Shown piece after piece: positions 19,301 through 41,688 of a DNA stretch of 64,000 nt (positions are counted from its first letter, which is position 1; each line of letters starts with the position of its first letter). The notes beneath the pieces are model-generated. The model was not told the origin of the DNA. It did no database searches and worked only from the letters and a program-made list of their open reading frames with translations. The stretch covers positions 239,391 to 303,390 of the forward strand of contig PUQB01000296.1 in the NCBI GenBank assembly GCA_003024785.1, given 5' to 3'. The position numbers were made by a program, and so were the translations under genes. Origin of the DNA: Selaginella tamariscina. Its lineage: Eukaryota > Streptophyta > Lycopodiopsida > Selaginellales > Selaginellaceae.

Positions 19301-19789
19301 TGTTCTATGACATCATTTCGCAAGACGTAGGCTATTTTGCCATAGCCCTTTATACTCAAGAGCTACACATGATGCCATGAATGTGGTTCGCAGATGCCAA
19401 TCTAGAAACCCTACTTGTTAACACTTAATGAACATGGTAATGAGAACCTTTCAGCCAAGATCTCATTCTCATAATTAAATGAGGGCACAAATAATAATGC
19501 ACGTTGTAACTAAAATGGGCATGATATGTGAAAATGGGAATATAAAATAAATTGCAAATTAATACTTAAGTTTTTAAATATTAATTAATTATTTAATTAA
19601 TATGTAATTAAGAATATTAATTAACTAATAAATTAATCCTTCAATAACCTTACTTAGTAAGGAATATTCCTAAAATATTTAAAATATTCATATTATTCTT
19701 CGTTCTAAAAATAGTTTACAATAATTAAAAAATACTATTAAACATAATTACAAATGAAATCATTTTTTCATCAACATGTTAATTTATTT

Positions 19790-20157
19790 ATAAATACTTT
19801 TGTCCTAACCATACAGAGAAATCTCTCATTTTGTTTAAATCATCACTCTCCGGATTAATTGAATCATTTTGGTCAATATATTGGTGTTGTTGCCACTACT
19901 TAACACTCTTACGAATGCAATTAGGAGTTGTCATCCTTGTTAATACATAAGATGTAATAAGACTATGTCTGCATAAAGGCTCATCTAAAAAATGATGTTC
20001 TTTAAGAATAATATTGTAAAATGCCTAGTTGCTATCCTTTATTTTATAAAACTCAAAATCACGAGAAAGAAAAGCGTTAGAAAATGTTTGATATGGTGGA
20101 TACTGCTCACAAAAGTTTTCGAGATTCTTCTTTCTGAGGCACGTTCCCATATCCTAG
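19790..20157 (-). pseudogene. C-terminal remnant of HAD phosphatase-like gene, unit 1
   Basis: Nucleotide-level match to 29600-29957 of the intact copy, with frameshifts and stops. Homology stops abruptly at about 20142. It is followed by a stretch of about 18-22 nt (AAAACATCGTTACCATGG) that is the reverse complement of 30713-30730 in unit 2. Homology then resumes at the counterpart of 31424. The copy thus carries a deletion of about 1.47 kb with an inverted filler. Confidence 0.7.
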
Positions 20158-20158
20158 C

Positions 20159-22335
20159 TTAAAACATCGTTACCATGGAAATGGACCCCCTAGTGTAGTA
20201 GTAAAAAACCCATGCATCACTATGAGGACCCCTGATCAAGTTGACGATGCTCCGTGCCGCTTGACTTGTGATGTTTGGATAATGTACATTGCCAAATATG
20301 TCCCTCTCAACTATCAATGTATCAGATGGAGGTTCAGGCCCGTTGGAGTGCAAACAGATGCCTGGTCAGTCATTTAGAAGTTTGAAATTGTTTGGTGCAT
20401 TCTTAACAACCAAGTGAACAACCGTATCAATGCACTTGGGATCAGCATCATTCATATAAAATCCGAAAACATAGGTATCAGTGAAGAGTGCAAGCATGAA
20501 TTCAATAATAAATACCTTTTTTGTACATGCTTGCACGGCTAAGTTTGTCCATCAAATCCTCTAGTGTCCTATATGTCGAAGGATTTTTTGACAACCTCTG
20601 ATCCATCACGAACAATTGAAACGGTTTCTTACAAGCAATGATGTTACCCCATAAAGTAACATTATTGTACAAGCATATCATTATCTGTCACATGCAAATA
20701 TTTGCTGACCTCTTCGTATGTTGAGGCCGAGGTCCAACCCAGTTTGTGGCAGTGTATTCCCAACCACTCTTTGAAGTGCTTGATCATCTTCAACTCCATT
20801 GCCTTGACATGAAAAGCAGAGGTGGGGCTACTGTTGTTAATCTGTAGTTTGTCATCAATCACCAAATCAATCAAAACTTCCATCTCCTCCATCGTTGTTT
20901 CATTTAAAGGCTTCTATCATATGAGCTTAAATCGTTGTTACATCCTTTGTAATTGAACAGACTTAGCCTTCGGCGTCTTACTAGGTTTCTTTGCAGACTT
21001 CTCTAAGGGTTCCTCTTCACTTGTCTGCTTCTTCTTCAGTGTTCCTTTTGAAAAGAATTCCATAATCCTCAACCATTTGGCAAAGATCTTATCCTCGGGA
21101 CAAGAAATCAACATCATCAAAAAGGATATTTCCTTCCTACCCACATGGGCAAAATCAGCTGCTACAAATTCTTCAACTCTTGAAAAAAAGAAACAGATTA
21201 ATATACCGACAAGATAAATCCCACCCAAACAATTTACTTCCCGGTACATTGCACATTGTGCCTGCAGTAGCTCTTTCTGGTCACCCAAGATGTTCCCACA
21301 TGGCTCGCGTGTGTTTAAACTTCTCCCATATTTTGCTGTTGTATGGTTGATGTCGATAGCGTCCCATTCCGCCAATAACTTATGGTACTGCTCGATTATG
21401 AGATTTGGCTTAGCTAAAAACACCGATCTTTTTGTCAACTTCTCACGAGTATGCTCGAAAAGTTTTGTTGCCATCGTTCCTTTGTTGTGTTCATCAAGAA
21501 GTCATTGGGCTGCCGTTATTGTGTGTTGGCCACTAATGATGTAGTACTTGATTGATTTTTTATTCTTCGTTTGAATCTTCATGATTTGTTCTGGTGTTGT
21601 CACCCACACTTTATCAGTACCTTTCTTTCTTTTGTAGTATGGGCACAAAACAACATTATGTGAAATGGTATAAGAATTGTTGTCCTTCATCTTCTCCATG
21701 AGCTCAGCTACACGTTCCTGGTTAAGTGGCTTGTAATTGAAGTTTGGGTTGACGTTGCAATACTTAACCCTACACTCATAAATCCTATCATCCAACATCA
21801 TTTCCTTGTGGCTTATTGCAGCATGGGAAGTAGACATCTAATTGGATCCCCTTTATAGATGGGCTTTCGTTGAGTTGAAGAAGAACTCCACGGTCAACAT
21901 CATTAGTGAACATGTGAAGATCATTATCCACAAGTCGATAAGACCACCCGAGATTAATGTTGTAATTGGTGACCTCTGGATCGAGAACGTGACATTGGAT
22001 GGAACAAGGCATATGTGTCGAGCATCATCCAATCTGGGTTCATAGACTGCTTTCAGGTGCTTGATTAGTAAATCTATTTTCCATTGTTTTGCTTGTTTAT
22101 GCGATGTGACAGAGGTTAGTTTGACAGCAACCATGGTTGCTCCAATGCGCTTCCCATTTATTTTGAAATATGGCCAAGTTGATTCCAAATCCCCTACCCA
22201 TCTCTTCTCCTACTCTCATCTTTAATGTCACCTCAATTCCACATCTGAATACAAAAATGATTAGTTCTTCAAGCACATATCCGAGTATAATATATTTTAT
22301 TTTAATTCTTACCTAGAATTTGACGACGACTCTAT
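20159..22335 (-). pseudogene. ParB-like gene, unit 1 (degenerate)
   Basis: Collinear with the minus-strand gene at 31042-34142. The ParB-fold segment is readable at 21502-21837 with VNPNFNYKPLNQERVAEL and IISGQHTITAAQ. The helical middle (EHTREKLTKRS, YHKLLAEWDA) is at 20938-21474, and the Lys/Ser-rich KKPSKTPKAKS segment and downstream part at 20662-20892. Compared with unit 2, roughly 300 bp between the N-terminal region and the ParB domain is deleted near 21840, the acidic C-terminal tail is gone, and the inferred in-frame ATG is ATA at 22333-22335. It is therefore a pseudogene even allowing for consensus errors. Confidence 0.65.
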
Positions 22336-22659
22336 ACTAATGACTGAATCTCCTTGTTTGATCAAAATCGTCCTTCTGCACAATAATACACTATAAATAC
22401 AAATCATATAAAAACGCACACACACTTGTATAAACCCAAATAACAAAAATAATACACTAAAATTCACATACACCCTGCTTTGTCTCAGAGAGAAGTGGAC
22501 GAGATTAACTGTTCAAAGCTCAGTTTTGTGAGACATATAACATTTCGTTTTAAAACCACCACAAACGTGAGCTTTGGACAGTTTCACATATGGTAAAATG
22601 ATAGAAGTAAATAAAATAAGATATGCAACTTATATATACTAATACATATATTTCACATA

Positions 22660-23725
22660 GAAGGTGGGGCAAGATTTATCTCGCCATACTTTTATGCCTC
22701 CTAAAACAGTGGGCAGGATTAATCTCGCCACCTTTCTCAATCCCCTAAATGGGTGTGCGGGATTAATCCCGCCATTGGCTTCAGAGAAAACTGGTTGGGA
22801 TTTATTTGGCACATCCATTTAGGGGAAAGAGAAGGGTGGCAGGATTAATCTCGCCCATCATGAAGGATGATGGAATTAATCTCGCCACCCTTCTCAGTCC
22901 CCTCAATTGGTATGTAGTAACACTTCTCCGTCTCAGACAGAGGTGGTCAGAATTGATTCAATTCACCAATAGAGGAAAAAGAGAAAGGTGGCGGGACTAA
23001 TTCAGCCACCCCTTCCATGCCTGGTGGGCGGGATTAATCCCGCCCACGACACTCTCATATGGATTAAGGCAATTGGCGGGATTAATTCCGCCACCAGGCA
23101 TAGAAGGGTTGGCGAGATTAATCCGGCTGCCCTCTCGTAAATCATGCACACACACACACATATATGGGTGGCGGGATTAATCCCCCTGCCCTTCAGAAGG
23201 GATGAGTGTGGGGCAGATTAATCCTGCCGCACACCCATGCCTTGTGCAGAAGGCGGCAGGATTAATCCCACCACTCATGGCATGTGTGAAGGGCCTGGGC
23301 AGCGGGATTAATCCCGCCATCTTCTGTGCAAGGCATGGGTGTGCGACGGACCTAGGCTCTTCACGCAGGCCATGGGCAGCGAGATTAATCCCGTCGCACT
23401 CCGCATAGGGCATGGGCGTGCGGTGGGATTAATCCCGCCACCTAAGCCCTTTACGCAGGCCATGGGCGGCGAGATTAATCTCACCGCTCTTTGGTTAGCC
23501 TCATGGGCAGCGAGATTAATCCTGCGCTCATGAGGCTAACCAAATAGCCTGCATGAAAGGCGGCGGGATTAATCCTGCCGCTGAGGCTAACCAAATAGCC
23601 TGCGTAAGGGCGCGGGATTAATCTCGTTGCTCATGAAGCTAACCAAATAACGTGCATGAAGGGCGGCGGGATTAATCTCGCCGCTCATGAGGGTAACGGA
23701 TGAGTGGCGGGATTAATCCCGCCAC
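22660..23725. repeat. Palindrome array 1
   Basis: About 23 copies of GGCGGGATTAATCCCGCC or close variants (for example at 22757, 23027, 23300, 23560 and 23703), usually 35-55 bp apart. The spacers are themselves repeated: GCATGGGCGTGCG-like pieces and GAGGCTAACCAAATAGCCTG-like pieces recur. The array is GC-rich inside very AT-rich DNA. It lies upstream of the ParB-like gene of unit 1 and is homologous to array 3. More degenerate at its left end. Confidence 0.9.
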
Positions 23726-23744
23726 CCATATACGGGAGTGTGCG

Positions 23745-24640
23745 TGTGTGCAGAGACAGAAAAATCAATAAGATTATATAGATACAAACACATATATATA
23801 TTTTATATATGTGTATATTATATATATATATATATATGGATATGTATTTCATGTGTGTGCTAAATAAATTAAATTATACATATACACACACATATATATT
23901 GTATATGTATATGTGTGTGTAGGAGAGTGCGTGTGTGTGCCAGAGATAGATAAATCAAATAAAATTATAGTGATACACACACACATATGTATATGTATAT
24001 ATATGTATATCATGTGTGTGTGCTAAATAAATTAAATTATACAGATACACACACACACACACACACACACATGTGTGTGTGTGTGTGTGTGTATGTATAT
24101 ACATGAGTGTGCGTGTGTGTGCGAGAGATAGATAAATTAATTAAATTATACAGATATTGGTACACATAATATGTATGTATATATGTATATATATGTGTGT
24201 ATATGTATAACATCCCGGGAAGAGGATCAGTAGTCTGGTCCGGGTTCGACGGGACGACCATCGGCGAAGCAGTTGGTTTCCGAGGCCAGGCTGGCCGCGG
24301 CAGACCAGCCCCGGTTGGTTTTCGTGGATGGGGGCAGGCCCAGCAAGGGAATGGCTCGGGGGCCTATATCGCGTGTATGCGTGTGTGAGCAAAATAAATA
24401 AAATCATACAGATAAACAAACCACACACACACACACATATATATACATGAGTGTACGTGTGTGTGCGAGAGATAAAGACATATACACACACATATGTGTG
24501 TGTGTGTGCGCGAGAGATAAATAAATAAATTTTATTATTAAGATACACACACATATAAATGTATATGTGAATAAAAATAAATAAATAAATACATGAGTGT
24601 GTGTGTGAGAGAGAGAGAGGTCTCACCTGTGTGTGAGAGA
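23745..24640. repeat. CA/TG and TA microsatellite tract
   Basis: Interleaved (CA)n, (TG)n, (TA)n and GAGAGA runs, with repeated TAAATAAATTAAATTATACAGA-type units near 23860, 24020 and 24130. Open stretches on the minus strand here, such as THTHTH/VCVCVC runs, are low-complexity artefacts. Confidence 0.9.
24212..24366. other. GC-rich island inside the microsatellite tract
   Basis: About 155 bp of complex GC-rich sequence (starts CCCGGGAAGAGGATCAG, contains TCCGGGTTCGACGGGACG and CTGGCCGCGGCAGACC) with sharp borders to TA/TG repeats. It is not a palindrome-array monomer and matches nothing else I can find in the window. The origin is unknown; it could be an inserted fragment of another element. 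Confidence 0.6.
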
Positions 24641-24672
24641 AAAGGAGATTTCACAGCTGCCGCCTCTGCCAT
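24627..24672 (-). other. Candidate first coding exon of the ParB-like gene, unit 1
   Basis: On the minus strand an ATG follows a TTAGGGTTTC telo-box-like leader and opens a 46-nt exon (MAEAAAVKSPF...) ending CACACAG before a GTGAGA donor. The next acceptor on this strand is the TGCAG just upstream of the KDDLIKQGDRVIS-type exon near 22380. The frames do not join without a one-base shift, so this remains tentative. The equivalent in unit 2 falls in the N gap. Confidence 0.35.
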
Positions 24673-24699
24673 CTTTCTTCTTGAAACCCTAAGAATATA

Positions 24700-26090
24700 C
24701 TTAAACCCTAAAAGGAATAAAATATATATTAACCCTAATTAAATATTCCTTCTAAGAATATACTTAAACCCTAAAAAGAATAAATATAAATTCACCCTAA
24801 ATGAATATTCTTTTATTATATTATCATAATTTTAAATTTGGTGTGTGGGTGTATCACATACACCTTAAAAATATAAATCATGCAGGGGTTTAACATGTGT
24901 GTGTCCATGAGAATGTTAAATTTTCATGTGTAGTAATACATATATACACACATAGTATTATACACATAAACATACATACATATTAGTATATATATATTGT
25001 AATATTATGTACGATGTGTATGTCTTAAAGAAGAGAGATAGACTACATATTATGGATCATGTATAGTAATATGTTTGAGAGAAGAGAGACAGTACATATT
25101 AATATGGATCATGCATGGTGTGTATGTATGAGAGAAGAGAAAGAGTGTTAACAAATTAAATTCATACACATTGCATATATTATATACACATGTATACATA
25201 CACACATACATACATACATATTACATGTGTAAATTCAATGTGTTACATACACACAAACTGAGTACATATATATCATACATGCGTTGAACATGATGTTTTC
25301 AATAAAAAAGCAACATATTTCTCCAGTTTGGTTTAGGGTTTAAAACCCAATGCAAGTATTTTATTATAAAATTTTATATGGTACATAATATATATATTAG
25401 TATAAAATCTTTATACTAATAAAACTAAATGCATGCACATTTTTTTTAATTATTTACTCTAAACACTAAAGTGTAGAGTGTTGTAACTATAATATTATAT
25501 AGTTTTAATAATATATATTAATTTAATATTGATAATAAGGTTTAACATAGGAATAATTTTGAAATAATAAGAAATTAATTGAGAAAATCTCATTAATATA
25601 TACAAATGTAGAATAATTATTGAAATAATTAAGAATAAGACTAATTTAATATGATAATCATGTTTAATATTGGAATATTCTTTGAATATTAAGAAAGTAA
25701 TAAAGAATATCCCATTAATAGTAGGAAATGTAAATTAATTACTCGAGTAATTAAGAATAATATTAATAAACAGACTATAAATATATTTTAAATGATACAT
25801 AATAATATATCAATTTATTTATTGTAAATGTATATATATATAATATAAACTTAATAATATATACTTGAATATTAAGAATGTAAATATATTACTAAAATTT
25901 CATATATTAAACAACTTGAATCATTTGAATTATATTAAATGCAATTTTATTAAACTCATTGAAATTGGAAAGTATATATATCAGAGTGTTGGTTATTTGT
26001 GTCAATTTATTTTAAATTTAATTTTGTTCTTTTCAAAAAATTTGAATTTTTAACATAAGTATTGTAGGTCTGATATATGAATTTAAAAAT
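24700..26090. promoter_or_regulatory. AT-rich core between divergent genes, unit 1
   Basis: Very AT-rich, with many TATATA and AATATTCTTGAAATAATAAG-type repeats and telo-box-like AAACCCTAA motifs at 24685-24780. It separates a candidate minus-strand first exon from a candidate plus-strand first exon, so it is the plausible bidirectional promoter. It is strongly similar to 35822-37387 in unit 2. No coding sequence seen. Confidence 0.4.
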
Positions 26091-26095
26091 ATTTA

Positions 26096-26270
26096 ATTTC
26101 CCACTCAAATTCAGATCTGGTTCTTTCTCTAGCAAGGGTTTCTTTATTTCTGTAATTTTCACTCTTCAGATCTTCTTTTTATCTTGATAGTGATTAGCTC
26201 AGGAGCGACATTAAATTGAGTGTTATTGTTTATAAGAAAGCACGGCGCCTTTAGTGTTATTTACAAGTAA
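26096..26270 (+). other. Candidate 5' untranslated exon of DUF7869-type gene, unit 1
   Basis: A block better conserved between units than its surroundings (matches 37388-37566). It contains CAGATCTGGTTCTTTCTC and GGAAAGCACGGCGCC-like segments and ends TTACAA before a GTAAGTATT donor. No long reading frame, so probably leader sequence. Confidence 0.5.
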
Positions 26271-26424
26271 GTATTATAAATAAATTTAGATATACTTATA
26301 AAGATTCATTCTTTTACATTCTCTCTTAAAATTAAAATTTAGGGGTTTAAAATGCATTAGGATTACATTATATTTCGTTAGGATTTATCCCGTTTAAACA
26401 TCCTTTTAACTTAATATTCTCGGT

Positions 26425-27235
26425 TAGCCGGGGCAACAGGATTAATCCAGCCATTTCTTTTCGCCTCTTAGAAGAGGTGGCAGAATTAATCCTGCCACCA
26501 TCTCTTTAATAGCTAGTCCGGGCAATGCTTTTCCGCTTTAAAAAAGAGCAGCAGGATTAATCCCGTCGATAACTCTTTTAACTGATAAAGAGTTATCTGA
26601 ATTTATTAAAAGAGTTATTGACAGGATTAACCCCGCCAACCATTCTAGAAAGAGAAGGGGTGGCGGGATTAATCTCGCCATCACTTCCATGTTTTAAAGA
26701 TTTGTGAGTAGGATTTATCCTGTCAATCAGTTTTGGATGCAGAAAAGCATTGGCGGGATTAATCCCACCCCCCAAGATCTCTTTGAAATCATAGTTTCAG
26801 AGAGAGTTGTGGGCGGGATTAATCCGCTAACTCTTCCTCATCGGAGAGTTTCTTGAGGTACCTAGTAACAGTCGGCTAGACTACCCTTAAACACCTAAGT
26901 GCACTAAGCAGGGCTATTGCCACTCCTCCTCGTCGGAGGGAGTTCGTGCAGGATTAATCCCGCCTCCTCTCTTCGACGAGGAAGATCCGACGGCGGGATT
27001 AATCCCGCCGCCTCTCTCCGATGAGGAAGATCCGGCAGCGGGATTAATCCCGCCGCCTCTCTCTAACAAGGAAGATTTGGCGGCGGGATTAATCTCACTA
27101 GCTCTTTCCCGTTTGAGGGAGTCAGCAATGGGATTAATCCCGCCACGAACTCCGAAGGGGTAGAATCGGCAGTGGGATTAATCCCGCCCACTGTTCGTCA
27201 TTGGAGGGAGTCGTGGGCGGGATTAATCCCACCCA
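26425..27235. repeat. Palindrome array 2
   Basis: About 16 palindrome copies, degenerate at the left (26430-26760) and near-perfect at the right (26990-27218). The spacers there are CTCCGA/TCGGAG-type and recur. It lies in the inferred first intron of the unit 1 DUF7869-type gene and is homologous to array 4. It is interrupted at 26846-26917 by a retroelement fragment. Confidence 0.9.
26846..26917 (-). mobile_element. LTR fragment inside palindrome array 2
   Basis: About 70 bp reading TTTCTTGAGGTACCTAGT...CACCTAAGTGCACTAAGC, the reverse complement of 48402-48472 within the complete LTR at 48307-49256, with few differences. It is absent from the homologous array 4. Confidence 0.85.
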
Positions 27236-27367
27236 TCAGTTGTATTAATCACGCATGAGATATTATCCTTATACATAATTATGTATTATTGCACATGCAA
27301 CTGCAGTTATGATTTTTTAAAAATTGCATAAACAGATATCATAAATAACACAATTATTTTTGTGCGG

Positions 27368-28880
27368 GACAATATCTATAATACTGGAGATAAAGTATGT
27401 CTTCTTCGGAACAATGACATAGTTGGCACTGAAACTGTAGAAGTTTGAGATGATAATGCATCATGTCACAATATTGCCCAAGGATCTTGTGTGTACGTAT
27501 GGGTGAACACCATTTATAAGCATGTTGAGGTTCTGGGAATGGAATTTGAGGAGGGTTCTCATGTATTGTGAAATTTGGAATGAAGTCAAGGTTGACACAG
27601 AATATGCAGAGGAGAGTTCTCATGTATTATGAAATTTGGATGAAGTTAAGGTTGACACAGAATATGCAGAGTCACAAACAAATAATAGTACGAGTTCACC
27701 AAATGATGGCTTGCCTGCTGTGATGGATGAGGTGATTCTCTTTCTTCATGATATTGAGGTTGGGAAAGGCATCATCACAGCTATAAATCCAATGGAAACA
27801 GTGTTAGAAGATAAACTAGGGGTCAACTTCGTGGGTGTAGTTGTGACAGAGGTTTCACTTAATGGCACATTGCATCCTGGATCCCTCGTGAGGTGGCGAA
27901 CATTTGAATTAAGACGGCAAGATGGTTCTACATATTCTGGGTTGGATTTCAATAATAACAACCCGGAAGAACAACTCATATTTGAAAGGTTCCTTGCATT
28001 GGTCCTATTGTAAAAAAAAGGCGATTCATGGGTTGCAGATCTTTCTCTGCAAGTTTTGGTAAGAGGGTCAAGATGGATACTACATCTTTCAAAAGTGTTA
28101 CAAGCATTTGCATGATTGACTGCTGCAAGAAGAAGTGTTGTCAGATGGCAAACTGGAATCAAATTACCCAATGTAGACATGTTTTTCATATGCTCACCCA
28201 AAAGCAAATGCATGAGTTTTATATGCTGCACTAACTGAGTGTATTGATGGAATGGCCTCGGACACAAGTTATCAGAGTACATCCATGGTATTTAATAAGG
28301 TGGCCATCTGCATCAAAGCTTAGTACTATATACGGGATCCCAAAGACCACGTTTTACCGTCGGAGGGATGAGTGGCTAGATGGAGCGCAAACCTCAGTAC
28401 ATGGGAACACTCGCCTGGTCAAAACCTGCTCTCACTTTATGGTAGCCATAGAGATACTCAAGGCTTTTATGGAAGCAAATGCAGACAAGATGCCTCACAA
28501 ATGCCGAACCACAAATGCAAGGGTTAGGGAAAATCTCAAGGTTTTGCCTTTAATTTACACTCAATTGAAGCTGTGTGAACATGTGAACAAGTGCCTCAGT
28601 TTGATGGGGCTCAAACAATTTGCACTGGTACCTTCAACAACATATGGAATACTCATTTTAAGGATGTGGAGATTGCAAAACACTCTAGCTTTTCCAAGTG
28701 TGACACTTGTACATCATTGAAGGCTGCAAAGGCTTGTGCAAAAACCTTGGTGGAGATCACTGCCATTCAAAAAAAAGACGGAGGCCTACATGATTGCACA
28801 ACAAACTTGCCAATCTCAATACTATGCACACCACATGCTTTTTGTCTCATGCCCATCAGAATGCTTGATCCATGACAATA
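27368..28880 (+). pseudogene. DUF7869-type transposase-like gene, unit 1 (5' half only)
   Basis: Collinear with 38792-40240: TGDKVCLLRNN-type N-terminus, then MDEVILFLHDIEVGKGIITAI near 27725-27790, then FYRRRDEWLDGAQTSVHGNTRLVKT near 28345-28430, then SKCDTCTSLKAAKAC near 28700. The sequence stops matching at 28880, just after the first putative catalytic Asp region, so the RNase H-like core with GHTHEDID is absent. The splice acceptor reads GCGG instead of GCAG and the start reads ATC instead of ATG. Dead copy. Confidence 0.75.
27548..27668 (+). repeat. 61-bp tandem duplication in the unit 1 transposase-like gene
   Basis: GAGGAGGGTTCTCATGTATT... through GACACAGAATATGCA occurs twice with an offset of 61 bp. 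The unit 2 copy has it once. The offset is not a multiple of three and shifts the frame. Confidence 0.85.
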
Positions 28881-29309
28881 AACTCTTTAATAATAGTACC
28901 AAATTGTTTACTTAAACTATATAAATTTAATATAAAAATATGGAAGATCGACTATATTATTATAGGATTTTATATATTATATATATATTATTACTAGTAC
29001 AAATTTTTAATTAATAATGTTATATTTAAATATTAATATTTTAATAACAACATTAATATTTATATAATGTACCTCTTATGCTCTTCCTTAATTTTTATAT
29101 TAGGCCCATACAATCTTAAATATAATATATTATATATTTAATACCTTCTACTTTTATAATGTTATTAATTTTATTAAAGGGTCGATTATAAAATAGAATA
29201 TTCTAAAGAATATTATGTTTTCAAACATATATTCTAAAGAATATTCCTTTAATATTAGATAATGTTAATTAAATAGCTAAAATTGCTAATTATTATGAAA
29301 TGAGACTAT
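28881..29309. other. AT-rich junction between units 1 and 2
   Basis: Almost pure AT sequence with TTATATATTATATATATTATT-like runs and AGAATATTCTTTA inverted motifs. No gene. It marks where unit 1 is truncated and unit 2 begins. Confidence 0.6.
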
Positions 29310-29597
29310 ATGCACGTTGTAACTAAAGTGGGCATGATACGTGAAAATGGGAATATAAAATAAATTACTAATTAATACTTAAGTTTTAATTATTAATTAA
29401 TCATTTAATTAATATGTAATTAAGCCTTAAATATTAATTAATTAATTAATTAATCCTTCAATAACCTTACTTAGTAAGGAATATTCCTAAAATATCTTAG
29501 AATATTCATATTATTCTAAAAATAGTTTACAATAATGAAGAAATACTATCAAACATAATTACAAATGAAATCATTTTCTTATCAACATGTTAATTTT

Positions 29598-30769: not shown

Positions 30770-31041
30770 TCTGACATGTGGCACAAGAAATTGTCGCCAA
30801 ACCCCTCTCTTACCTCATGGCAATGCTGAAAATCCATGTTCTCAATTATTTCATTACATCTGCAAAATGATAATTAGCTGACCTTAAAATTATCAAGGTA
30901 TATTATTTACCTTGTTAATGTGTGACCCATGTTTGAACTAAAAGCTTCATTAATCCTTGAGAATTTATTTTCTGTACAAATATAAAAGAAATATACAAAA
31001 ATGCCTTATGTTACACTCATTTACAACTATTCATCACTCTA
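30770..31041. other. Spacer between the phosphatase-like and ParB-like genes
   Basis: AT-rich. It contains a possible short upstream exon on the minus strand (TTTTGCAG acceptor near 30865, a CATGAG/GTAAGA donor near 30815) that could extend the phosphatase-like gene. Not otherwise coding. Confidence 0.35.
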
Positions 31042-34000
31042 TCAATTCATTATCAATTCTTCTTCGCTATTACCTTCTGAGTGAGGCGAAGAAGGTCTAA
31101 GCCGCTTGTGAGATGGTTCAAGATCTTCTGCATCTTCTATTGATGTTTCCATGGGTCCTGGAGTGTGCGAATGTTCTGTACTCCTCGAGATAACTTCCGG
31201 TCTAATATCTGATTGAAGTTCGTTCTCAGACTCCGAGATTGAACCAGATTCACCTTCAGAGCTATCGCACTTATCTGGAGGGAACTTTCTCAAATACGCC
31301 TTTATGGATTCGTTGGGGTACTCAGTTGAGACCCAATCTATCCACTTGTTCAGGTCCTCAACCATGGTCTTATCCTTTCAACGGCAAACACACATGTATG
31401 CCGAAGGTAACACTCCTTCAAGACGGACCCCCTAGTGCAGTAGTCAAAAACCCACGCATCACTGTGAGGACCCCTGATCAAGTTGACGATGCTCCGTGCC
31501 GCTTGACTTGTAATGTTTGGATAACGTACATTGCCGAATACGTCACTCATACCTATCGGTGTATCGGATGGAGGTTCAGGGCCGTTGGAGTGCAAACAGA
31601 TGCCTGGCCAGTCATTTGGAAGCTTGAAATTGTTTGGCGCATTCCTAACAACCAAGTGAACAACGTATCAATGCACTTGGGATTAGCATCGTTCATATAA
31701 AATCCTGTCCAACGATGTCTATTCTTCTTGGCGAAGGCGAAGGCAAAAGTATCGGTGACATGAGCAAGAATCAAGAAATAAATACCTGAAAAAGTAGGTA
31801 TCAGTGAAGAGCGCAAGCATGAATTCAATAATAAATACCTTCTATGTATATGCTTGCACGGCTAAGTTTCTCCACCAGATCCTCTAGTGCCCTATCTGTC
31901 GAAAGATTTTTTGACACCCGCCGATCCATCACGAACAATTGAAACGGTTTCCTACAAGCAGTGATGTTACCCCATAAAGTCTCCGAATCTAACAACAAAC
32001 ATCTGTAGGGCTTGTCGTGATTCGTAGCATCCTCCTTTATAAGGTTCAATTCGGTTCTCCGCTGCTGAAGGACTGCCATAAGAGAAGGCGTCATCCCAAT
32101 GTTCTCCTTTTTGGCGTTGGCGTGCAATAGATTCTTGCCTAGATCTTCCGATTGGTTCACCCATTCGACAAGCATATCATCGTTCGTCACATGCAAATAT
32201 TTGCTGACCTCTTCATATGTTGAAGTCGAGGTCCAACCCAGTTTGTGGCAGTGTATTCCCAACCACTCCTTGAAATGCCTGACCGTCTTCAACTCCATTG
32301 CCTTGAGATGAAAAGGAGAGGTTGGGCTGCTGTTATTAATTTGTAGTTTGCCATCGATCACCAAATCAGCCAAGACTTCCATCTCCTCCATCGTTGTTCC
32401 ATTTAAAGGCTTCAACCATGTGAGCTTGAAATCGTTGTCTACATCCTTTGTAGATTGAACAGACTTAGCCTTCGGCGTCTTACTGGGTTTCTTTGCAGAC
32501 TTTTCTGAGGGCTCCCCTTCACTTGTCTGCTTCTTCTTCAGTGTTCCTTTTGAAAAGGATTCCATAATCCCCAACCATTTGGCAAAGATCCTATCTTCGG
32601 GGCAAGAAATCAACATCATCAGAAAGGATGTTTCCTTCCCGCCCACCTGGGCAAAATCAACTGCTGCAATTTCTTCAACTCTCTGAGGAAAAAGACAGAT
32701 TAATATACCGGCGAGATAAATCCCGCCCAAACAATTTGCTTACCCGGTATTCCGCAGATTGTGTATTCCCTGCGGTAGCTCTTTGTGGTCGCTGAAGAGA
32801 TTCCCACACGGCTCGCGTGTGTTTAAACTTCTCCCATATTTTGCTGTTGTAGTGGTTGGTGTCGGCAGCGTCCCATTCCGCCGATAACTTATGGTACTGC
32901 TCGATTGTGAGATTCGGCTTAGCTAAAAACGCCGATCTTTTTGTCAGCTTCTCACGGGTATGCTCGGAAAGTTTTGTTGCCATCGTTCCTTTGTTGTGTT
33001 CATCGAGAAGTCGTTGGGCTGCCGTTATTGTGTGCTGGCCACTAATGATGTAGTACTTGATAGATTTTTTATTCTCCGTCTGAATCTTCATGAGTTGTTC
33101 TGGTGTTGTGATCCAGACTTTGTCAGCACCCTTCCTTCTTTCATAGTATGGACACAAAACAGCATTATGTGGAACGGTATAAGAATTGTCGTCCTTCATC
33201 TTCTCCATGAGCTCAGCTACACGTTCCTGGTTGAGTGGCCTGTAATTGAAGTTTGGGTTGACGCTGCAATATTTAACCCTACAAGGATAAATCTTATCAT
33301 CCAACATCATTTCCTTGTGACTTATTGCAGCATGAGATGCCACAGGTGCAGCTGACAAAACGATTGATGATTTTCTTTTGCGATCCGAATCAACATGTGT
33401 GATCCCCGACTGCAGCTGTTCTAGTGTTCTCGGCACACTCTTCCAGCTCCCGAAGCTTCCTAAGCAAATTGAACGTGATCTGTAGAGAACCTGAGACCGA
33501 GCCACCTCTCAATCTCCCTTATGATGTCGCTGTGTTCTTCTTCAATGTGAAGAGGGAAGATTGCTCCACTTGCTGATTTTCTGTATTGTGAAGCAATATC
33601 TCCTGACAATACACCTACTCGATGAGTCTGAAGATCTTCGAAGTAGACATCCAGATGGATCCCCTCCATAGATGGGCTTTCGTTGAGTTGAAGAAGAACT
33701 CCAAGGTCAACATCATTAGTGAACACGTGAACGTCATTATCCACAAGTCGACAAAACCACCCGAATTAATGTTGTAACTGACGACCTCTGGATCCGAGAA
33801 CGTGACATTGGATGGAACAAGGCATATCTGTCGAGCATCGTCCAATCTGGGTTCGCAGCCTGCTTTCGGGTGCTTGACTAGCGAATCTACTTTCCATTGT
33901 TTTGCTTGTCCATGAGATGTGACAGAGGTTAATTTGACAGCAACCATGGTTGCTCCAATGCGCTTCCCATTTATCTTAAAATATGGCCAAGTTGATTCCA

Positions 34001-34142
34001 GAATCCCCCTGCCCATCTCTTCTCCTGCTCTTGTCTTTAATGTCACTCAATTCCACATCTGAATACAAAAATGATTAGTTCAAGTATCCGAGTATAACAG
34101 ATTTTATTTTAATTCTTACCCAGAATTTGACGACGACTCCAT
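31042..34142 (-). CDS. Long protein with ParB/sulfiredoxin-like domain and acidic tail
   Basis: Not a family I can name. From the start ATG at 34140-34142 (MESSSNSG) a 23-nt coding exon is spliced over a 61-nt intron to CGIEVTL-type sequence. An in-frame open stretch (KDDLIKQGDRVIS) precedes the ATG up to a TGCAG acceptor at 34182, so the true start may lie further upstream. Around 33280-32995 is a ParB-N-like segment: VNPNFNYRPLNQERVAELMEK, then IISGQHTITAAQRLLDE, matching the G-x-H/R-x-x-x-A box of that fold. In ParB this box binds CTP; in relatives it has nuclease or kinase-like roles. Downstream are a charged helical region, a KKPSKTPKAKS basic patch near 32490, and a Ser/Glu-rich acidic C-terminus (31042-31365). 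Several frameshifts interrupt it. Confidence 0.55.
32683..32743 (-). other. 61-nt intron of ParB-like gene containing a palindrome
   Basis: Donor GTAAGC follows GAATACCGG and acceptor CCTCAG precedes AGAGTTGAAG on the minus strand. Positions 32710-32727 hold GGCGAGATAAATCCCGCC, a two-mismatch form of the array palindrome, filling about a third of the intron. The unit 1 copy at 21208-21225 holds a further degenerated version. Confidence 0.8.
34059..34119 (-). other. 61-nt intron near the start of the ParB-like gene
   Basis: Donor GTAAGA after TCTGG and acceptor TGTATTCAG before ATGTGG join codons into NSGCGIE. Unit 1 has the same splice signals near 22240-22310, which supports the assignment. 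Confidence 0.7.
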
Positions 34143-34484
34143 ACTAATGACTCGATCTCCTTGTTTGATCAAATCGTCCTTCTGCAAAATAATACACTAT
34201 AATATAAATTATATAAAAACGCACACACACTTGTATAAACCCGAATATACAAAAATAATACACAGAGAGAAGTAGACGTAATTAACTGTCCGAAGCTCAC
34301 ATTTGTGTTAGTGCAAAAGAAAGATAACATTTCGTTTTAGAACCACCACAAATGTGAGCTCTGGACAGTTTTACATAGATTCCTAGCTTTTACTCGAAAT
34401 ATTATGATAAGATGATAAAAGTAAATAAAATGAGATATGCAACTTATATATACTAATACACATATATATTCACATGGAAGGTGC

Positions 34485-35298
34485 ATTAATCTCGCCACCC
34501 CTTCAATGCCTCCTGAAAGAGTGGGCGGGATTAATCTCGCCACCTTTCTGGAGGCCTTGAACGGGAGTGCGGAATTAATCTTGCCACCCTTCTCGGTCTC
34601 AGAGAGAACTGGGCAGGATTTATTTCTCACACCCCTTCAGTGACTCCAGAAAGGAGGCGGGATTAATCTCGCCCACCATGTAAGGATGGTTAAATGAATT
34701 TCCCACCCTTCCCAGTTCTCTCCATTGGTATGTTGAAACCTTCTACGTCTCAGACAGAAACGTTTGGGATTGGTCCGACTCACCAATGGAGAAAAAGGAA
34801 GGGTGGCGGATTCATTCCTCCAACAGGCATTGAAGACTCGGCGGGATTAATCCCGCCGCCCAGGGCCTTCACTCGGTCCCTATGCGGCGGGATTAATCCC
34901 GCCGGACGCCAATTCCCTGCGCGGAATCGGGCGGGATTAATCCCGCCGCCTAGGCACTTCAGGCAGGCCAATGGCGGCGGGATTAATCCCGCCCGATTCC
35001 GCAGGGAATTGGTCGGCGGGATTAATCCCGCCTCCCAGGCCCTTCACTCGGGCCTTAGTCGGCGGGATTAATCCGCCGAACGCCAATGCCCTGTGCGAAA
35101 TCTTGCGGGATTAATCCCGCCGCCTAGGCCCTTCAGGCAGGCCAATGGCGGCGGGATAAATCCCGCCGACGCCATGCCGTGCAAATCGCGGGATTAATCC
35201 CGCCGCCTAGGCCCTTCAGCAGGCCAATGGCGGCGGATAAATCCCGCCCGATTCCGCGCAGGCATGCGTACGCGACGGGATTAATTCCCGCCACCATG
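34485..35298. repeat. Palindrome array 3
   Basis: About 17 copies. Those at 34840, 34886, 34930, 34976, 35015, 35061, 35103 and 35150 are near-perfect and spaced 39-47 bp (mean about 44). Spacers recur (CCTAGGCCCTTCAGGCAGGC and GATTCCGCGCAGG types) and contain their own short dyads. It lies upstream of the unit 2 ParB-like gene, probably within its 5' intron, and runs into the assembly gap. Confidence 0.92.
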
Positions 35299-35305
35299 TA
35301 AGGGA

Positions 35306-35821
35306 NNNNNNNNNNNNNNNNNNNNNNNNNNNNNNNNNNNNNNNNNNNNNNNNNNNNNNNNNNNNNNNNNNNNNNNNNNNNNNNNNNNNNNNNNNNNNNN
35401 NNNNNNNNNNNNNNNNNNNNNNNNNNNNNNNNNNNNNNNNNNNNNNNNNNNNNNNNNNNNNNNNNNNNNNNNNNNNNNNNNNNNNNNNNNNNNNNNNNNN
35501 NNNNNNNNNNNNNNNNNNNNNNNNNNNNNNNNNNNNNNNNNNNNNNNNNNNNNNNNNNNNNNNNNNNNNNNNNNNNNNNNNNNNNNNNNNNNNNNNNNNN
35601 NNNNNNNNNNNNNNNNNNNNNNNNNNNNNNNNNNNNNNNNNNNNNNNNNNNNNNNNNNNNNNNNNNNNNNNNNNNNNNNNNNNNNNNNNNNNNNNNNNNN
35701 NNNNNNNNNNNNNNNNNNNNNNNNNNNNNNNNNNNNNNNNNNNNNNNNNNNNNNNNNNNNNNNNNNNNNNNNNNNNNNNNNNNNNNNNNNNNNNNNNNNN
35801 NNNNNNNNNNNNNNNNNNNNN
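35306..35821. other. Assembly gap (516 Ns)
   Basis: A run of N that begins within palindrome array 3 and ends in AT/microsatellite sequence equivalent to about 24960 in unit 1. By comparison the gap should hold the rest of the array, the CA/TG tract and the candidate first exon of the ParB-like gene. Confidence 0.98.
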
Positions 35822-37387
35822 ATACATACATACACATTGGCATATATTAATACACATAATATTACATACACGTGACCACAGACATACACACATATTAGTA
35901 CATATATTAGAGAGACCGGTAATATTATAGATCATGCATGGTGTATATGTTTGAGAGAGAGAGACAGTACATATTAACATGGTCATGCATGGTGTGTATG
36001 TATGAGAGAAGACAGAAAGTACACATATATACATCAGAGTAACATATATACATGCACACGTGTATACAACAGACATACATACATATTACATGAGTAAATT
36101 CATTGTGTTACATATTAGGGTTTAGGGTTTAGGTTAGGGTTTGCTCCAAACAAGCTTAATATAAATATTACACATGTAAATTCAATGTGTTACATACAGT
36201 CACACAGATTGAGTAATATATCATACATGCGTTGAACATGATGTTTTCAATAAAGAAGCAACCTATTTCTTTCAGTTTGGTTTAGGGTTGTGCATGTGTG
36301 TGCATATGTGTTTTTTGTAAGTTCTTGTAATGCGTGTGTAAATTTATGATTGTGTTTATATATGTGTGCAAAACAAACATCGGAATAATTAAGAAAATAA
36401 TATAATAAACACACTAGGAACATATTTTAAATTATACATATATATATGATTTTATCTAATATATAGCCATATATAGTTTTAATAATATATATTAATTTAT
36501 ATTGATAAAAAGGTTTAACATTGAAATATTCTTGAAATAATAAGAAATTAATTGAGAAATCCCATTATATATATACAAATGTAAATTAAGTACTCAAATA
36601 ATTAACTAATTAATTATCATAATCATGTTTAATATTGGAATATTCTTGGAATAATAAGAAAATTAATAAAGAATATCCATTAATATAAGAAGATTAATTA
36701 CTCAAGTAATTAAGGAAATGATAATTAATATATATTATTAAAACTATATATGACTATATATTAGATAAAATGATGTATTTATTATGTATAATTTAAAATA
36801 TGTTCATAGTGTGTATTAATTTAATATTGATAATAGGTTTAACACATGAATATTCTTGAAATAATAACAAATTAATTGAGAAAATCCCATTAATATATAC
36901 AAATGTAGAATAATTACTGCAATAATTAAGAACAAGACTAATTTAATTATGATAATCAGGTTTAATATTAGAATATTCTTCAAATATTAATAAATATTAA
37001 AGAATATCCCATTGATACTAGGAAATGAAAACTAAATACTCGAGTAATTAAGAAAATAATAATTAAACAGACTATGAATTATTTTAAATGATACATAATA
37101 ATATATCAATTTATTTATTGTATAAGTATATATTATATATATATATATATAAATATACTTGAATACTAAGAATGTAGAATATAGTCTAAAATTTGTAATA
37201 TTAAACAGCTTGAATCACTTGAATAACATTAAATGCAATTTTAAAATACTCATTGGAACTGGAGAGTATATATGTCAGAGTGTCGGATATTTGTGTCAAC
37301 TCATCTTAAATTTTATTTTCTGTTCTTTTTAAAAATTTGAATTTCTGACATATGTATTGTCGGTCTGACATGTAAATTTGAAAATGC
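35822..37387. promoter_or_regulatory. AT-rich core between divergent genes, unit 2
   Basis: Similar to 24950-26090 in unit 1 and dominated by GGAATATTCTTGGAATAATAAG-like and TAATTAAG-like repeats. It is located between the two arrays and upstream of the conserved plus-strand leader exon. Plausible bidirectional promoter; no single core element can be defended. Contains the telomere-like run at 36115. Confidence 0.4.
36115..36142 (+). repeat. Interstitial plant-type telomere-like repeat
   Basis: Four consecutive TTAGGGTTT-type units (TTTAGGG phase, one copy short by a base). It is too short to be a telomere remnant with certainty; telo-box motifs of this type are also common in plant promoters. 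Confidence 0.7.
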
Positions 37388-37566
37388 ATTTAATTTCCCA
37401 CTCAAATTCAGATCTGGTTCTTTCTCCGGCAAGGGTTTCTTCATTTCTGTATTTTTCACTCTTTAGATCTTCTTTTTTCTTCATAGTGATCATCTCAGGA
37501 GCGAGATTAAATTGGGTGCTATTCTTTATAGGAAAGCACGGCGCCTTCAGTGCTGTTTACAAGTAA
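37388..37566 (+). other. Candidate 5' untranslated exon of DUF7869-type gene, unit 2
   Basis: Conserved with 26096-26270. It ends GCTGTTTACAA before the donor GTAAGTATT. Paired with the acceptor at 38790-38791, this implies a first intron of about 1.2 kb that contains the whole of array 4. Confidence 0.5.
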
Positions 37567-37727
37567 GTATTATAACAAATTTAAAAATACTTATTAGATT
37601 CACTCTCTTACATTCTCTCTTAAAATTACAATTTAGGGGTTTAGAAATGCATTAGGATTATAATATATTCCGTTAGGGATTTATCCGTTTAAATATCCTT
37701 TTAACTTAATATTCTAGGTTAACCGGG

Positions 37728-38648
37728 CGGCGGGATTAATCCGGCCATTTCTTTTTGCCTCTTCGAAGAGTGGCGGGATTAATCCCGCCACCATCTCCCG
37801 GGCAATGCTTCTCCGCCACTGAAAAAGAGTGGCGGGATTAATCCCGTCGATAACCTTCTCAACTGATGAAGAGTTACCAGATTTATTAGAAAGAGTTGTC
37901 GGCGGGATTAATCCCGCCAACCATTTTAGGAGGCAGGGAAGGGGTGGCGGGATTAATCTCGCCACCACTTCCCTGTTTTAAAGATTTGGGACAGGATTTA
38001 TCCGAGATCTCTTTGAAATCATAGTTTTGGAGAGAGTTATGTGCGGATTTAATCCCGCCACCCATTCCCCGTCGTAAGAATTGTGGGCGGGATTAATCCC
38101 GCCTTGGACTCCCTCCGACAAGGAAGAGCCGGCGGGATTAATCCCGCCGCCTCTTCCTCCGGGGGAGTCCGGCGGGATTATCCCGCCGACTCTCTCCGGC
38201 GAGGATGAGTCGGCGGGATTAATCCCGCCGGACTCCCTTCCTCGTCGGAGAGAGTCGGCGGGATTAATCCCGGGACTCCCCCGAGGAGGAAGAGGCGGCG
38301 GGATTAATCCCGCCGGCTCCTTGTCGGGGAGTCAAGGCGGGATTAATCCCGCGACTCTCTCCGAAGGGGTGAGTCGGCGCGGGATTAATCCCGCCGGACT
38401 CCTTCTCGAAGAGAGTCGGCGGGATTAATCCCGCGGACTCCCCGAGAGAAGAGTCGGCGGGATTAATCCCGCCGGACTCCCCCGAGGAGGAAGAGGCGGC
38501 GGGATTAATCCCGCCGGCTCTTCCTTGTCGGAGGGAGTCCAAGGCGGGATTAATCCCGCCGACTCTCTCCGAAGGGGTTGAGTCGGCGGCGGGATTAATC
38601 CCGCCGACCGTTTCTCGGAGGGATTCGTTGGCGGGATTAATCCCCCAT
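37728..38648. repeat. Palindrome array 4
   Basis: About 21 copies. The 14 consecutive copies starting at 38086, 38131, 38171, 38212, 38257, 38297, 38336, 38377, 38418, 38456, 38498, 38543, 38588 and 38630 have a mean period of 41.8 bp, close to four helical turns. Spacers are also dyadic: GACTC...GAGTC framing CTCCGA/TCGGAG. Most copies match the palindrome exactly; a few lack one to three bases. This is the best-preserved array. Confidence 0.93.
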
Positions 38649-38797
38649 CAGTTGTATTAATCAAACATGAGTATTATCTCTAAACATAATTATGTATTAT
38701 TGCATATGCATATTATTAAGTAACCGTAATTCAGATTTCTTAAAAATTTGCATAAACAGATATCATAAATAATACAATTATTTATGTGCAGGACAAT

Positions 38798-41688
38798 ATG
38801 TTTAATACTGGAGATAAAAGTATGTCTTCTTCGGAACAACGAGATAGTTGGCACTGGAACTGTGGAAGTTCGAGATAATAATGCATCATGTCACAATATT
38901 TCCCAAGGATCTTGTGTGTACGTATGGGTGAACATTTACAAGCATGTTGAGGTTCTGGGAATGGAATTTGAGGAGGGTTCTCCTGTATTGTGGAATTTGG
39001 ATGAAGTCAAGGCTGACACAAATATGCAGAGTCACAAACAAATAGTAGCACGAGTTACCAGATGATGGCTTGCCTGCTGTGATGGATGAGGTGATTCTCT
39101 TTCTTCGTGAGATTGAAGTCGGAAGAGGCATCATCACAGCTATAAATCCAATGGAAGCAGTGTCAGAAGAGAAACTAGGGTCCGACTTCGTGGGTGTAGT
39201 TGTGACAGAGGTTTCACCTAATGGCACATTGTATCCTGGATCCTCGTGAGGTGGCGAACATCTGAATTAAGACGGCAAGATGGTTCAACATATTCTGGGT
39301 TGGATTTCAATAATAACAACCGGAAGAACAACTCATATTTGAAGAGGTTCCTTGCATTGGTCCTATTGTAAGAAAAGGGCGATTCATGGGTTGTAGATCT
39401 TCCCCTGCAAGTTTCAGCAAGAGGGTAAAGATGGATCCTACATCTTCCGAAAGTGTTACGAGCATTTCCACGATTGACTGTTGCAAGAAGAAGTGTTGTC
39501 AGATGGCAGACCGGAATGAAATTACCCAATGTAGACATGTCTTTCGTATGCTCACCCAAAAGCAAAGGCATGAGTTTGTATATGCTGCACTAACTGGGTG
39601 TATTGATGGAATGGCCTCGGACACAGGTTATCAGAGTACATCCATGGTATTTAATAAGGTGGCCATCTGCTTCAAAGCTTGGTACAGTATATACGGGATC
39701 CAAAGACCACGTTCTACCGTCGGGGATGAGTGGCTAGATGGAGCGCGAACCTCAGTTCATGGGAACACTGGCTTGGTCAAAACCCGCTCTCACATCATGG
39801 CAGCCATAGAGATACTCAAGGCTTTTGTGGAAGCAAATGCAGACAGGATGCCTCACAAATGCCGAACCACAAATGCAGGGGTCAGGGAAAATCTCAAGGT
39901 TTTACCTTCAATCTACACTCAATTGAAACTGTGTGAACATGTGAACAAGTGCCTCAGTTTGATGGGGCTCCAAGCAATCTGCACTGGTACCTTCAACAAC
40001 ATATGGAATACTCATTTTAAGGATGTGGAGATTGGCAAAACACTCTAGCTTTTCTAAGTGTGACACTTGTACATCATTGAAGGCTGCAGAGGCTTGTGCA
40101 AAAACCTTGGTGGAGATCACTACCATTCAAAGGAAGATGGAGGCCCACATGATTGCACAACAAACTTGCCGGTCTCAGTACTATGCACACCGCATGCTTT
40201 CTGTGTCACGCCCATCAGAGTACCTGTGCTTGATCCATGACAAGATGGATCATTCAAAGACCAGCATTCCAAAGCTCTTTGCAACACCAAAGTGCCTTGG
40301 AAATGTCATGAACTTCCGATTTCATTGACAGGTGTGCTAACACATGGACACGGTTGTGAGTCATATGGACACTTTTCACTTCCACATTGGTCTAGCGACT
40401 CCAATTTCACTATTGGGTCGTTAGCCATGTGTTTCAGAAACCTTGAAGCCCACTCACAGACAAGTCCTATCAGTGATCTCAAAGTGAAGAAACAACACCT
40501 TCAACCTTTACATAATGCCTCTCATGAACACATCTCACTTGAGGCTACTTGGGAATAGAAGGCATTGTCGCAACCTGCACAAAAAACAGATGGCCTGTTG
40601 AGAGTTTAGGTTCAGTGGAGGGATCTAGCTCAAATAGTGTACATGTGTCCTCAACATCAAATAAGCTTCCTCGTCATTTGCTTTTACAGATGGATAATTG
40701 TGCAGGCGGAACAAAAATAGGTAAATCATTTTACTTAAGGGTTTCTCAGCTCATACTTACTTTATTTTCTAGATATGTGCTAGCATACTTGTCACTGGCT
40801 TGTTGCCAAAGGTGTGTTTGAAACAATCACGCTCAGTTCCTTATGGTTGGTCACACTCATGAAGATATTGATGCGTTCTTCAGCAAGGTCTCCAACTCTA
40901 CAAAAAGGACAAGTGCACTTACCTTACCGCATATGATGAATCTTTTTGAAAATTGCATCTCCAAAAAAAGTTTGTGCTTTGCTTGTGACTGAGGTGCCAG
41001 ACTTCAAAAAATTTCTCAAGGAGTATATAAAAGAAGGGAGTGATTCTTTAGTTGGTCACCTTGTGCCGCTACAATTCTTTTTCTCCATACGAGATGGTAT
41101 ACCTATTATGCAGTACAAGTTACGGCCATCAGAGCAGAAGTGGTTACCGAAAGAGGGCTTAATGCTCTTCAAAAGTGGAGAGGATGGAAAGCCACTTCTC
41201 CCAGAAGGACAACCAGACCCTATTCCATTGAGTGCCCAGCTCAAGGAACAAGAGGTTATTATTGATGGCATCAAAAAATATGTGGCATGGGTTCAAAAAT
41301 CAATGCCAAAGAATTCTGATAAGGCAACTGGTTACTCAGAACTATATAAGCATGTGGTCAACTATTGGAGACTGTTGTTCGAGAGTTGGAAGGGCCTACT
41401 GTCCAAGTACAGAATTGCAACACCCTTTCTGGCCTAAAACAAGGTGGCGAGAGGAGATTGAAATGACATCACTGAGCACAAACGACATAGAAGCCAGTAG
41501 TGATGTGGAAGTGCAAACCCCACATTTTGTTGGACAAAGGAACCAAAAACTAAAGCATACTTTGATTGCTGCAAGGATCTTCAAAAACTAATGATGGTTC
41601 TCATTACTCCAGATGCGTCATATAATCAGCCTATTTGGATGGGTCAAATTATCGACACACCTGAAGTAATCACAAAAAATAGAATTTG
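38798..41688 (+). CDS. DUF7869-type protein, probable DDE-like transposase (frameshifted)
   Basis: Exon begins after TGTGCAG at 38791 with start ATG at 38798; about 940 codons if frameshifts are ignored. In order: TGDKVCLLRNN N-terminus; FYRRxDEWLDGA near 39710; SKCDTCTSLKAA near 40055; LIHDKMDHSKTSIPKL near 40230; LLLQMDNCAGGTK near 40680; a 52-nt intron; FLMVGHTHEDIDAFF near 40840; then a C-terminal region ending PIWMGQIIDT near 41640. The three acidic motifs (HDKMD, LQMDN, GHTHEDID) fit an RNase H-fold DDE arrangement, although the family is formally uncharacterised. The C-terminus is cut by an LTR at 41689. About ten single-base shifts break the frame, yet protein text is preserved around them. 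Confidence 0.7.
40721..40772 (+). other. 52-nt intron in the DUF7869-type gene
   Basis: Donor GTAAATC after ACAAAAATAG and acceptor TTATTTTCTAG before ATATGTGCTAGC. Splicing joins the LQMDN block to RYVLAYLSL and GHTHEDID, the usual family order. An adenine appears missing before the donor. Confidence 0.75.

Follow-up and report, generated by a model that had tools for sequence, protein, structure and literature searches.

Palindrome arrays in a recently active, Sola-like DNA transposon of Selaginella tamariscina and their putative part in escape from silencing

What might dense arrays of an 18-bp palindrome do inside a plant mobile element? The question is raised by a stretch of 64,000 nucleotides from Selaginella tamariscina (GenBank assembly GCA_003024785.1, contig PUQB01000296.1, positions 239,391 to 303,390, forward strand), here called the window, whose numbering is used throughout unless another contig is named. 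A first-pass annotation described a composite mobile unit, in two head-to-tail copies, that combines a DUF7869-type transposase, a ParB-fold protein, an FCP1-type phosphatase, and arrays of the palindrome, and suggested that one of the encoded proteins binds the palindrome for transposition, silencing escape, or copy maintenance. The unit is a DNA transposon of about 14.8 kb, which is present at about two thousand places in the genome and has recently been active. We tentatively read it as an autonomous, Sola-like cut-and-paste transposon with cargo, in which the palindrome arrays may serve as a binding platform for anti-silencing of the kind known from VANC proteins.

The limits of the transposon were fixed from seven other, near-identical copies in the same assembly, together with their flanks, and from the ends of ten further copies. 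Three full-length copies measure 14.7–15.0 kb and one measures 17.8 kb. The element is bounded by terminal inverted repeats of about 27 bp, with the form ATGCA[C/A]GTTGTAACTAAA[G/A]TGGGCATG; ATGCACGTTGTAACTAAAGTGGGCATG opens it, and the inverse, CATGCCCATTTTAGTTACAACTTGCAT, closes it. The left terminal repeat is present at all 17 left ends read. Of the 13 right ends fetched, 12 have the right terminal repeat, in one case in degenerate form. A fourteenth right end was lost to the end of its contig.

Insertion leaves a short duplication of the target. Both ends were read in 12 copies, two of which (on contigs C468 and C514) were excluded as nested or rearranged. Among the ten copies tested, a 4-bp target duplication is exact in five (ATAT twice, ATAA, TTAG, and ACAT) and, apart from a single additional base on the left side, is also present in two others, while mispaired flanks, used as a control, gave a 4-bp match in 6 of 90 cases. 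Of the alternative lengths, 2 bp was found in three of the ten copies (18 of 90 when mispaired), 3 bp in one, and 5–8 bp in none. Flanks joined with a single copy of the duplication also recover two empty sites, both matched without interruption. One is a gypsy-type pol gene in the window, matched by the joined flanks at 88.9% over 198 bp and unbroken at the junction; the other is another copy of the element, matched at 96% over 150 bp. The proposed mobile unit is thus borne out by its terminal repeats and target duplications, whose lengths could be defined from other copies, and by its empty sites.

Copies are nested in or abut other copies at several of the loci read. On contig C468, two different element ends (L044 and L045) lie at the same site, between AAAACTAAT and GATGG, in the 3' region of another copy, hinting at an insertion hot spot of the element in itself. 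The window also holds pol reading frames (43684..47464, minus strand), which we take from their motifs to be of Ty3/gypsy type; one transposon insertion has gone into a relative at another place.

Genome counts were made in the 300.7-Mb assembly, which comprises 1,391 contigs. A 1-kb piece of the unit has 2,133 candidate places, and the 40 that were scored match over about the whole length at 98–100% identity. The terminal-repeat core occurs 2,201 + 2,114 times with up to one mismatch, a transposase 29-mer 1,100 + 1,095 times and a phosphatase 32-mer 874 + 857 times with up to three mismatches, and the exact palindrome at 27,128 sites; the reversed control was 0 in each case. Pairing of these marks was assessed on the 100 places that head each list, all exact, and the rates are therefore lower bounds. 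A right end stands at the expected distance and orientation for at least 32 of 54 transposase places, a left end is paired with at least 20 of 27 phosphatase places, and a divergent transposase mark lies 7.5–20 kb away for at least 18 of 27 phosphatase places. Reading of the eight young copies showed the ParB-like gene in every one, and it was also present in one further copy of 95% identity.

The youth of these eight copies is apparent from their private substitutions, which number 12 in all over about 4.8 kb per copy. In the same copies, 37 columns are private indels and another 16 variable columns, most of them indels, are shared. Private indels thus outnumber private substitutions threefold, so the assembly probably contains indel errors, and single frame breaks consequently prove little; one such break, near 31664 in the copy of the window, is missing in four of the eight copies. 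A partial copy (L048, contig C1, 4850–7950) carries terminal repeats and palindromes and is 95% identical over the ParB-like gene; among the exact marks listed, no transposase or phosphatase mark lies between its ends, and it is possibly an older or altered subfamily.

Within the window, the two copies follow each other head to tail with the same gene order, as the first-pass annotation had it. Copy 1 (19497..29309, plus strand) is the older one, about 90% identical to young copies and internally deleted. Its left terminal inverted repeat occupies 19497..19523 (plus strand), and its right terminal repeat is interrupted by the insertion of copy 2, whose start at 29310 falls within the right-end sequence of copy 1. 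Copy 2 (29310..41691, plus strand) is young, with 98.6–99.9% identity to other copies across 29310–35204. It begins with the left terminal inverted repeat ATGCACGTTGTAACTAAAGTGGGCATG (29310..29336, plus strand), whose right-end partner was read in other copies, and it is without its last ~690 bp, since likeness to other copies ceases about 41690–41694, at the start of a long repeat. The pairing therefore stands for the order of the genes and falls for the equality of the copies, one being deleted and diverged, the other cut short. A 1.3-kb stretch that begins at the cut of copy 2 (41680–43000) recurs inverted at 61727–63025 with 93% identity, and the pair looks like the long terminal repeat of a retroelement.

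The transposase gene of copy 2 lies at 38798..41691 (plus strand) and has its 3' end cut; its start and an intron at about 40721–40772 are our reading. Its product matches Pfam PF25273 (DUF7869) with an E value of 4e-36, which confirms the earlier identification. In copy 1, a decayed form lies at approximately 27373..28878 (plus strand), with the 3' part deleted. The first exon is open for about 660 codons in two of five copies (C862 and C769), and the second is open for 390 codons in one of the five (C936) and for 247 in three. Four other proteins with DUF7869 were found: P0001–P0003 are 29–30% identical over 56–77% of the query, and the fourth is 34% identical over 15%. In alignment, P0001–P0003 keep the motif order D-K-M-D-H-S-K, M-D-N...N-K-N, G-H-T-H-x-D-I-D. 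The acidic motifs are conserved; a structure model of the relative P0001 with six further rows was too poor to show the fold (mean predicted local distance difference test score, pLDDT, 31.8). A search of the available literature turned up no paper on DUF7869.

The second gene, a NIF/FCP1-type phosphatase-like gene at 29601..30600 (minus strand) in copy 2, is cargo. Read with X at two frame breaks, it matches Pfam PF03031 (NIF/FCP1) with an E value of 2.1e-11, again as first annotated; copy 1 retains only its 3' piece, up to about 20147. The catalytic motif of the NIF/FCP1 family is D-x-D-x-[TV]. The gene of the element resembles the family in its PF03031 match and differs in this motif, the first catalytic motif reading D-V-N-G-V, with D-V-N-G in place of D-x-D.

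By its target duplication, terminal repeats, and size, the element is most like the Sola superfamily. The available extracts on Sola describe elements with terminal inverted repeats and a DDD transposase, some of them longer than 15 kb, whose target duplications measure 4 bp and are often AT-rich, and they report occurrence in Physcomitrella and the acquisition of cargo genes (PMC10741241, PMC3627910); terminal inverted repeats of 11–1124 bp are given (PMC10741241). The element shares the 4-bp duplication and the large size, its terminal repeats fall within this range, and it likewise occurs in an early land plant (PMC10741241, PMC3627910, table in PMC9033089). A phosphatase, a ParB-like orphan, and palindrome arrays, all of which the element has, are not mentioned for Sola in these extracts.

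What sets the element apart is the arrays. The palindrome, GGCGGGATTAATCCCGCC (18 bp), occurs in the window at 18 exact sites, and at 39, 59, and 72 sites when up to one, three, and five mismatches are allowed, every one of them within 19497–41700, so that the dense arrays first reported are indeed part of the unit. Shuffled palindromes, up to 50 of them, gave three sites in all with up to three mismatches. Counted at this threshold, array 1 of copy 2 (34524..35305) lies upstream of the ParB-like gene and begins about 0.4 kb ahead of its start, and array 2 (37729..38647) lies upstream of the transposase gene and ends about 150 bp ahead of its start, both starts being our own reading. The corresponding arrays of copy 1 are at 22712..23723, where decay is mostly C>T/G>A, and at 26479..27233. 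A further palindrome-like site, at 32710 and within three mismatches, stands in an intron of the ParB-like gene. A run of 516 N (35306–35821) splits array 1 of copy 2; the copy on contig C463 is about 2 kb longer there, so the size of the gap in the window is probably not real.

This young copy on contig C463 has 28 sites in array 1 and 11 in array 2, with up to four mismatches, and 21 of its 37 neighbouring spacings are 44–46 bp. Its palindromes are 90–92% alike and their flanks 31–32%, the former value being high partly by construction, because likeness to the palindrome was the basis on which sites were selected. Counting ATTAAT cores does not presuppose the outer bases: on this count, 35 of 66 cores match 8–12 of the 12 outer bases, compared with none of 25 in the remainder of the window, and the distribution is bimodal. 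The five longest copies hold 10–28 exact palindromes each, and larger units of the arrays keep some likeness of their spacers.

Elsewhere in the genome, the palindrome keeps company with the element. Across the first 100 sites, on contig C1 (0–2.08 Mb), each of the 11 palindrome clusters has a transposon end, a transposase mark, or a phosphatase mark no more than 12 kb away, as against 15.7% of random positions. In the part of the genome covered by this comparison, the palindrome does not behave as a general satellite, which was one of the findings that the first-pass annotation had named as fatal to its proposal. Among viral contigs, one carries a single palindrome site.

Methylation-type decay marks the older copy. 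Compared with a young copy, the left genes of copy 1 show 141 C>T/G>A changes against 43 T>C/A>G changes, and its transposase gene 65 against 22 of the opposite type. The 141 changes fall in CG (43), CHG (35), and CHH (63) contexts, of which the first 4.9 kb of the young copy offers 298, 307, and 1,371 sites, respectively; decay is relatively most frequent in CG and CHG, a comparison in which only the ranking counts because numerator and denominator cover somewhat different stretches. Of the mismatches in palindromes, 65 of 82 are C>T or G>A in copy 1, whereas the young copy on C463 has 19 such changes among 51. From this pattern, copy 1 was probably methylated in a plant-like manner in the past.

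The third gene encodes an orphan protein. In copy 2 it spans 31045..34142 (minus strand) in several exons, with start and splice sites again of our own reading, and in copy 1 a decayed form lies at approximately 20198..22330 (minus strand). The protein contains the stretch N-P-x-F-N-Y-R...L-x-x-x-R-V-x-E-L...Y-Y-I-I-S-G-Q-H-x-x-x-A-A, which we take to follow the order of the ParB boxes. Aligned by HHalign with a profile of eight plasmid ParBs, this stretch scores 19.3 in the expected register, a score reached in 1 of 200 shuffles and in none of 56 windows taken from the other proteins of the element and from relatives of these. The match is no more than suggestive, because HHalign's own probability is 2.3% and the window of 120 amino acids was picked after the motif had been seen. 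Pfam, PHROGs, NCBIfam, and PDB sequences gave no ParB match, viral contigs gave three pattern matches, none of them confirmed, and prediction of an exon's structure was set aside with no fold obtained (mean pLDDT 33.8). Of the ParB-fold protein first proposed, the G-Q-H-x-x-x-A box and a weak profile match are left, and no family or homologue match was found.

The C-terminal part has no homologue at E≤10 among 607 candidates. A reading of it as a degenerate class-beta DNA methyltransferase (motifs IV and I) was dropped when it failed in HHalign against nine methyltransferases: equal scores arose in 112 of 200 shuffles for the C-terminal piece and in 11 of 150 for a longer piece, and the register was wrong. 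Its PDB matches are designed or calcium-binding proteins and are chance-like.

For arrays of this kind, the VANDAL transposons of Arabidopsis offer a close comparison. As described in the available extracts, VANC proteins bind short motifs in tandem arrays in the non-coding and intron DNA of their own element (PMC5735166), and these motifs lie upstream of the element's genes and are dense only in that family (PMC5735166, PMC10398659). Among the sequence-specific anti-silencing systems in these extracts it is the best worked-out, and maize Spm TnpA and MuDR MURA are also named there as lowering methylation (PMC5735166, PMC10398659). The Selaginella element is alike in having non-coding arrays of an element-specific motif, upstream of its genes and in an intron. 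The VANC21 motif, however, is a 9-mer in a single orientation, whereas that of the element is an 18-bp palindrome, and VANC binding is proven, whereas binding of the palindrome is here predicted from sequence. VANDALs are Mutator-like elements without terminal inverted repeats (PMC13317346), and Mutator-type elements have target duplications of 7–12 bp (PMC10741241); the 4-bp target duplication and the DUF7869 transposase show that the element is not a VANDAL.

We tentatively propose that the element works as follows. The DUF7869 transposase would cut and insert the element, which consists of two outward-facing, divergent units, with the transposase running rightward and the ParB-like protein and phosphatase leftward. 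The two arrays, which are the upstream regions of these units, would present a dense platform to which a protein binds by sequence; the likeliest candidate is the ParB-like protein that the element itself encodes. Once bound, this protein may keep the non-coding DNA of the element open against host cytosine methylation, so that the genes of both units remain expressed. Such a mode of action would be VANC-like and would have been arrived at independently of VANDALs. It is suggested by the motifs specific to the element, which stand densely upstream of the two genes and also occur in an intron, by recent multiplication, and by the methylation-type decay of the old copy; among the options first put forward, silencing escape fits best. 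In a more specific version, which we regard as a long shot, a ParB-type clamp would load at the palindrome arrays, spread as ParB does from parS, and shield the transposon from methylation. If true, a plant nucleus would house an anti-silencing system resembling ParB-parS, one for which the search of the protein collection found no relative.

Several observations weigh against the anti-silencing proposal or its parts. Both transposase exons are fully open in none of the five copies checked, although some of the breaks are probably assembly errors, and in all eight copies read the phosphatase motif and the main part of that gene are in different frames. The 4-bp duplication is missing in three of the ten copies tested, and exact duplications number 5 of 12 when those on C468 and C514 are counted. 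Membership of Sola is putative, the resemblance being one of target duplication, terminal repeats, and size. A ParB-type N-domain in the orphan protein is weakly indicated, and none of the 7,992 candidates scored as homologues of the protein reached E≤0.001. The arms of the palindrome, GGCGGGA and TCCCGCC, also resemble plant E2F sites (WTTSSCSS with one mismatch).

This last point supports a different account, possible though rather unlikely, in which the arrays are host sites, paired E2F half-sites that tie transcription of the element to S phase, and the ParB-like protein is otherwise employed. The arrays do stand directly upstream of both genes, but among sites within four mismatches the arms are no more uniform than the ATTAAT centre, and neither this centre nor the ~45-bp period is known to be required by an E2F site. 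The account is a serious alternative because of the likeness of the arms and because transposon amplification of E2F sites is known in Brassicaceae, according to the available extract (PMC12595863). An improbable one is that the arrays are a passive minisatellite, amplified by slippage within the transposon and functionless. The ~45-bp period, the varying number of sites, and the residual spacer likeness of the larger units all speak for it; slippage alone, however, would keep flanks and palindromes alike, whereas the flanks have diverged far more (a difference partly due to the choice of sites), and there are two separate arrays, one upstream of each gene.

Roles in transposition or maintenance are less probable still. 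Arrays of short sites bound by an element's protein are known in DNA transposons, and the palindromes might be transposase sites comparable with those of Spm TNPA or Mu MURA. We doubt this strongly, because the terminal repeats of ~27 bp are without the palindrome and the arrays, ~5 kb from the left end and ~3.7 kb from the right, are not subterminal; palindrome binding for transposition, one of the functions first suggested, is accordingly unlikely. The comparison with bacterial ParB-parS, also made at the outset, is favoured by the palindromic nature of the sites and by a G-x-[RH]-x-x-x-A box whose place agrees with the order expected, and is weak in that it turns on one weak domain match. 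By extension, a protein loading at the palindromes could segregate the element or maintain an extrachromosomal form of it, as in a plasmid. This is very improbable: the element is found in chromosomal contigs, flanked by target duplications, each long copy has 10–28 exact sites, and no ParA was noticed when the frames of a single full copy were read, in which no ParA model was run.

Beyond the transposon, the window contains a direct repeat of about 680 bp (53150–53824 and 57012–57691, 97% identity) and a GC-rich stretch (1–3500) with exon-like pieces, which we presume to resemble the splicing factor SF3B3. Rfam gave no match in the window, and literature searches on ParB with methyltransferase and on Selaginella, Sola, and palindromes, mostly limited to lists of papers, turned up nothing on the element.

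DUF7869, a domain of unknown function, is now placed in a transposon that carries cargo and whose ends and target duplications are defined. The palindrome, with its 27,128 exact sites, is a ready probe for DNA affinity purification sequencing (DAP-seq) or an electrophoretic mobility shift assay (EMSA). How transposons escape DNA methylation in plants is a live question, and an unrelated transposon with motif arrays upstream of its genes would suggest that the strategy arose again.

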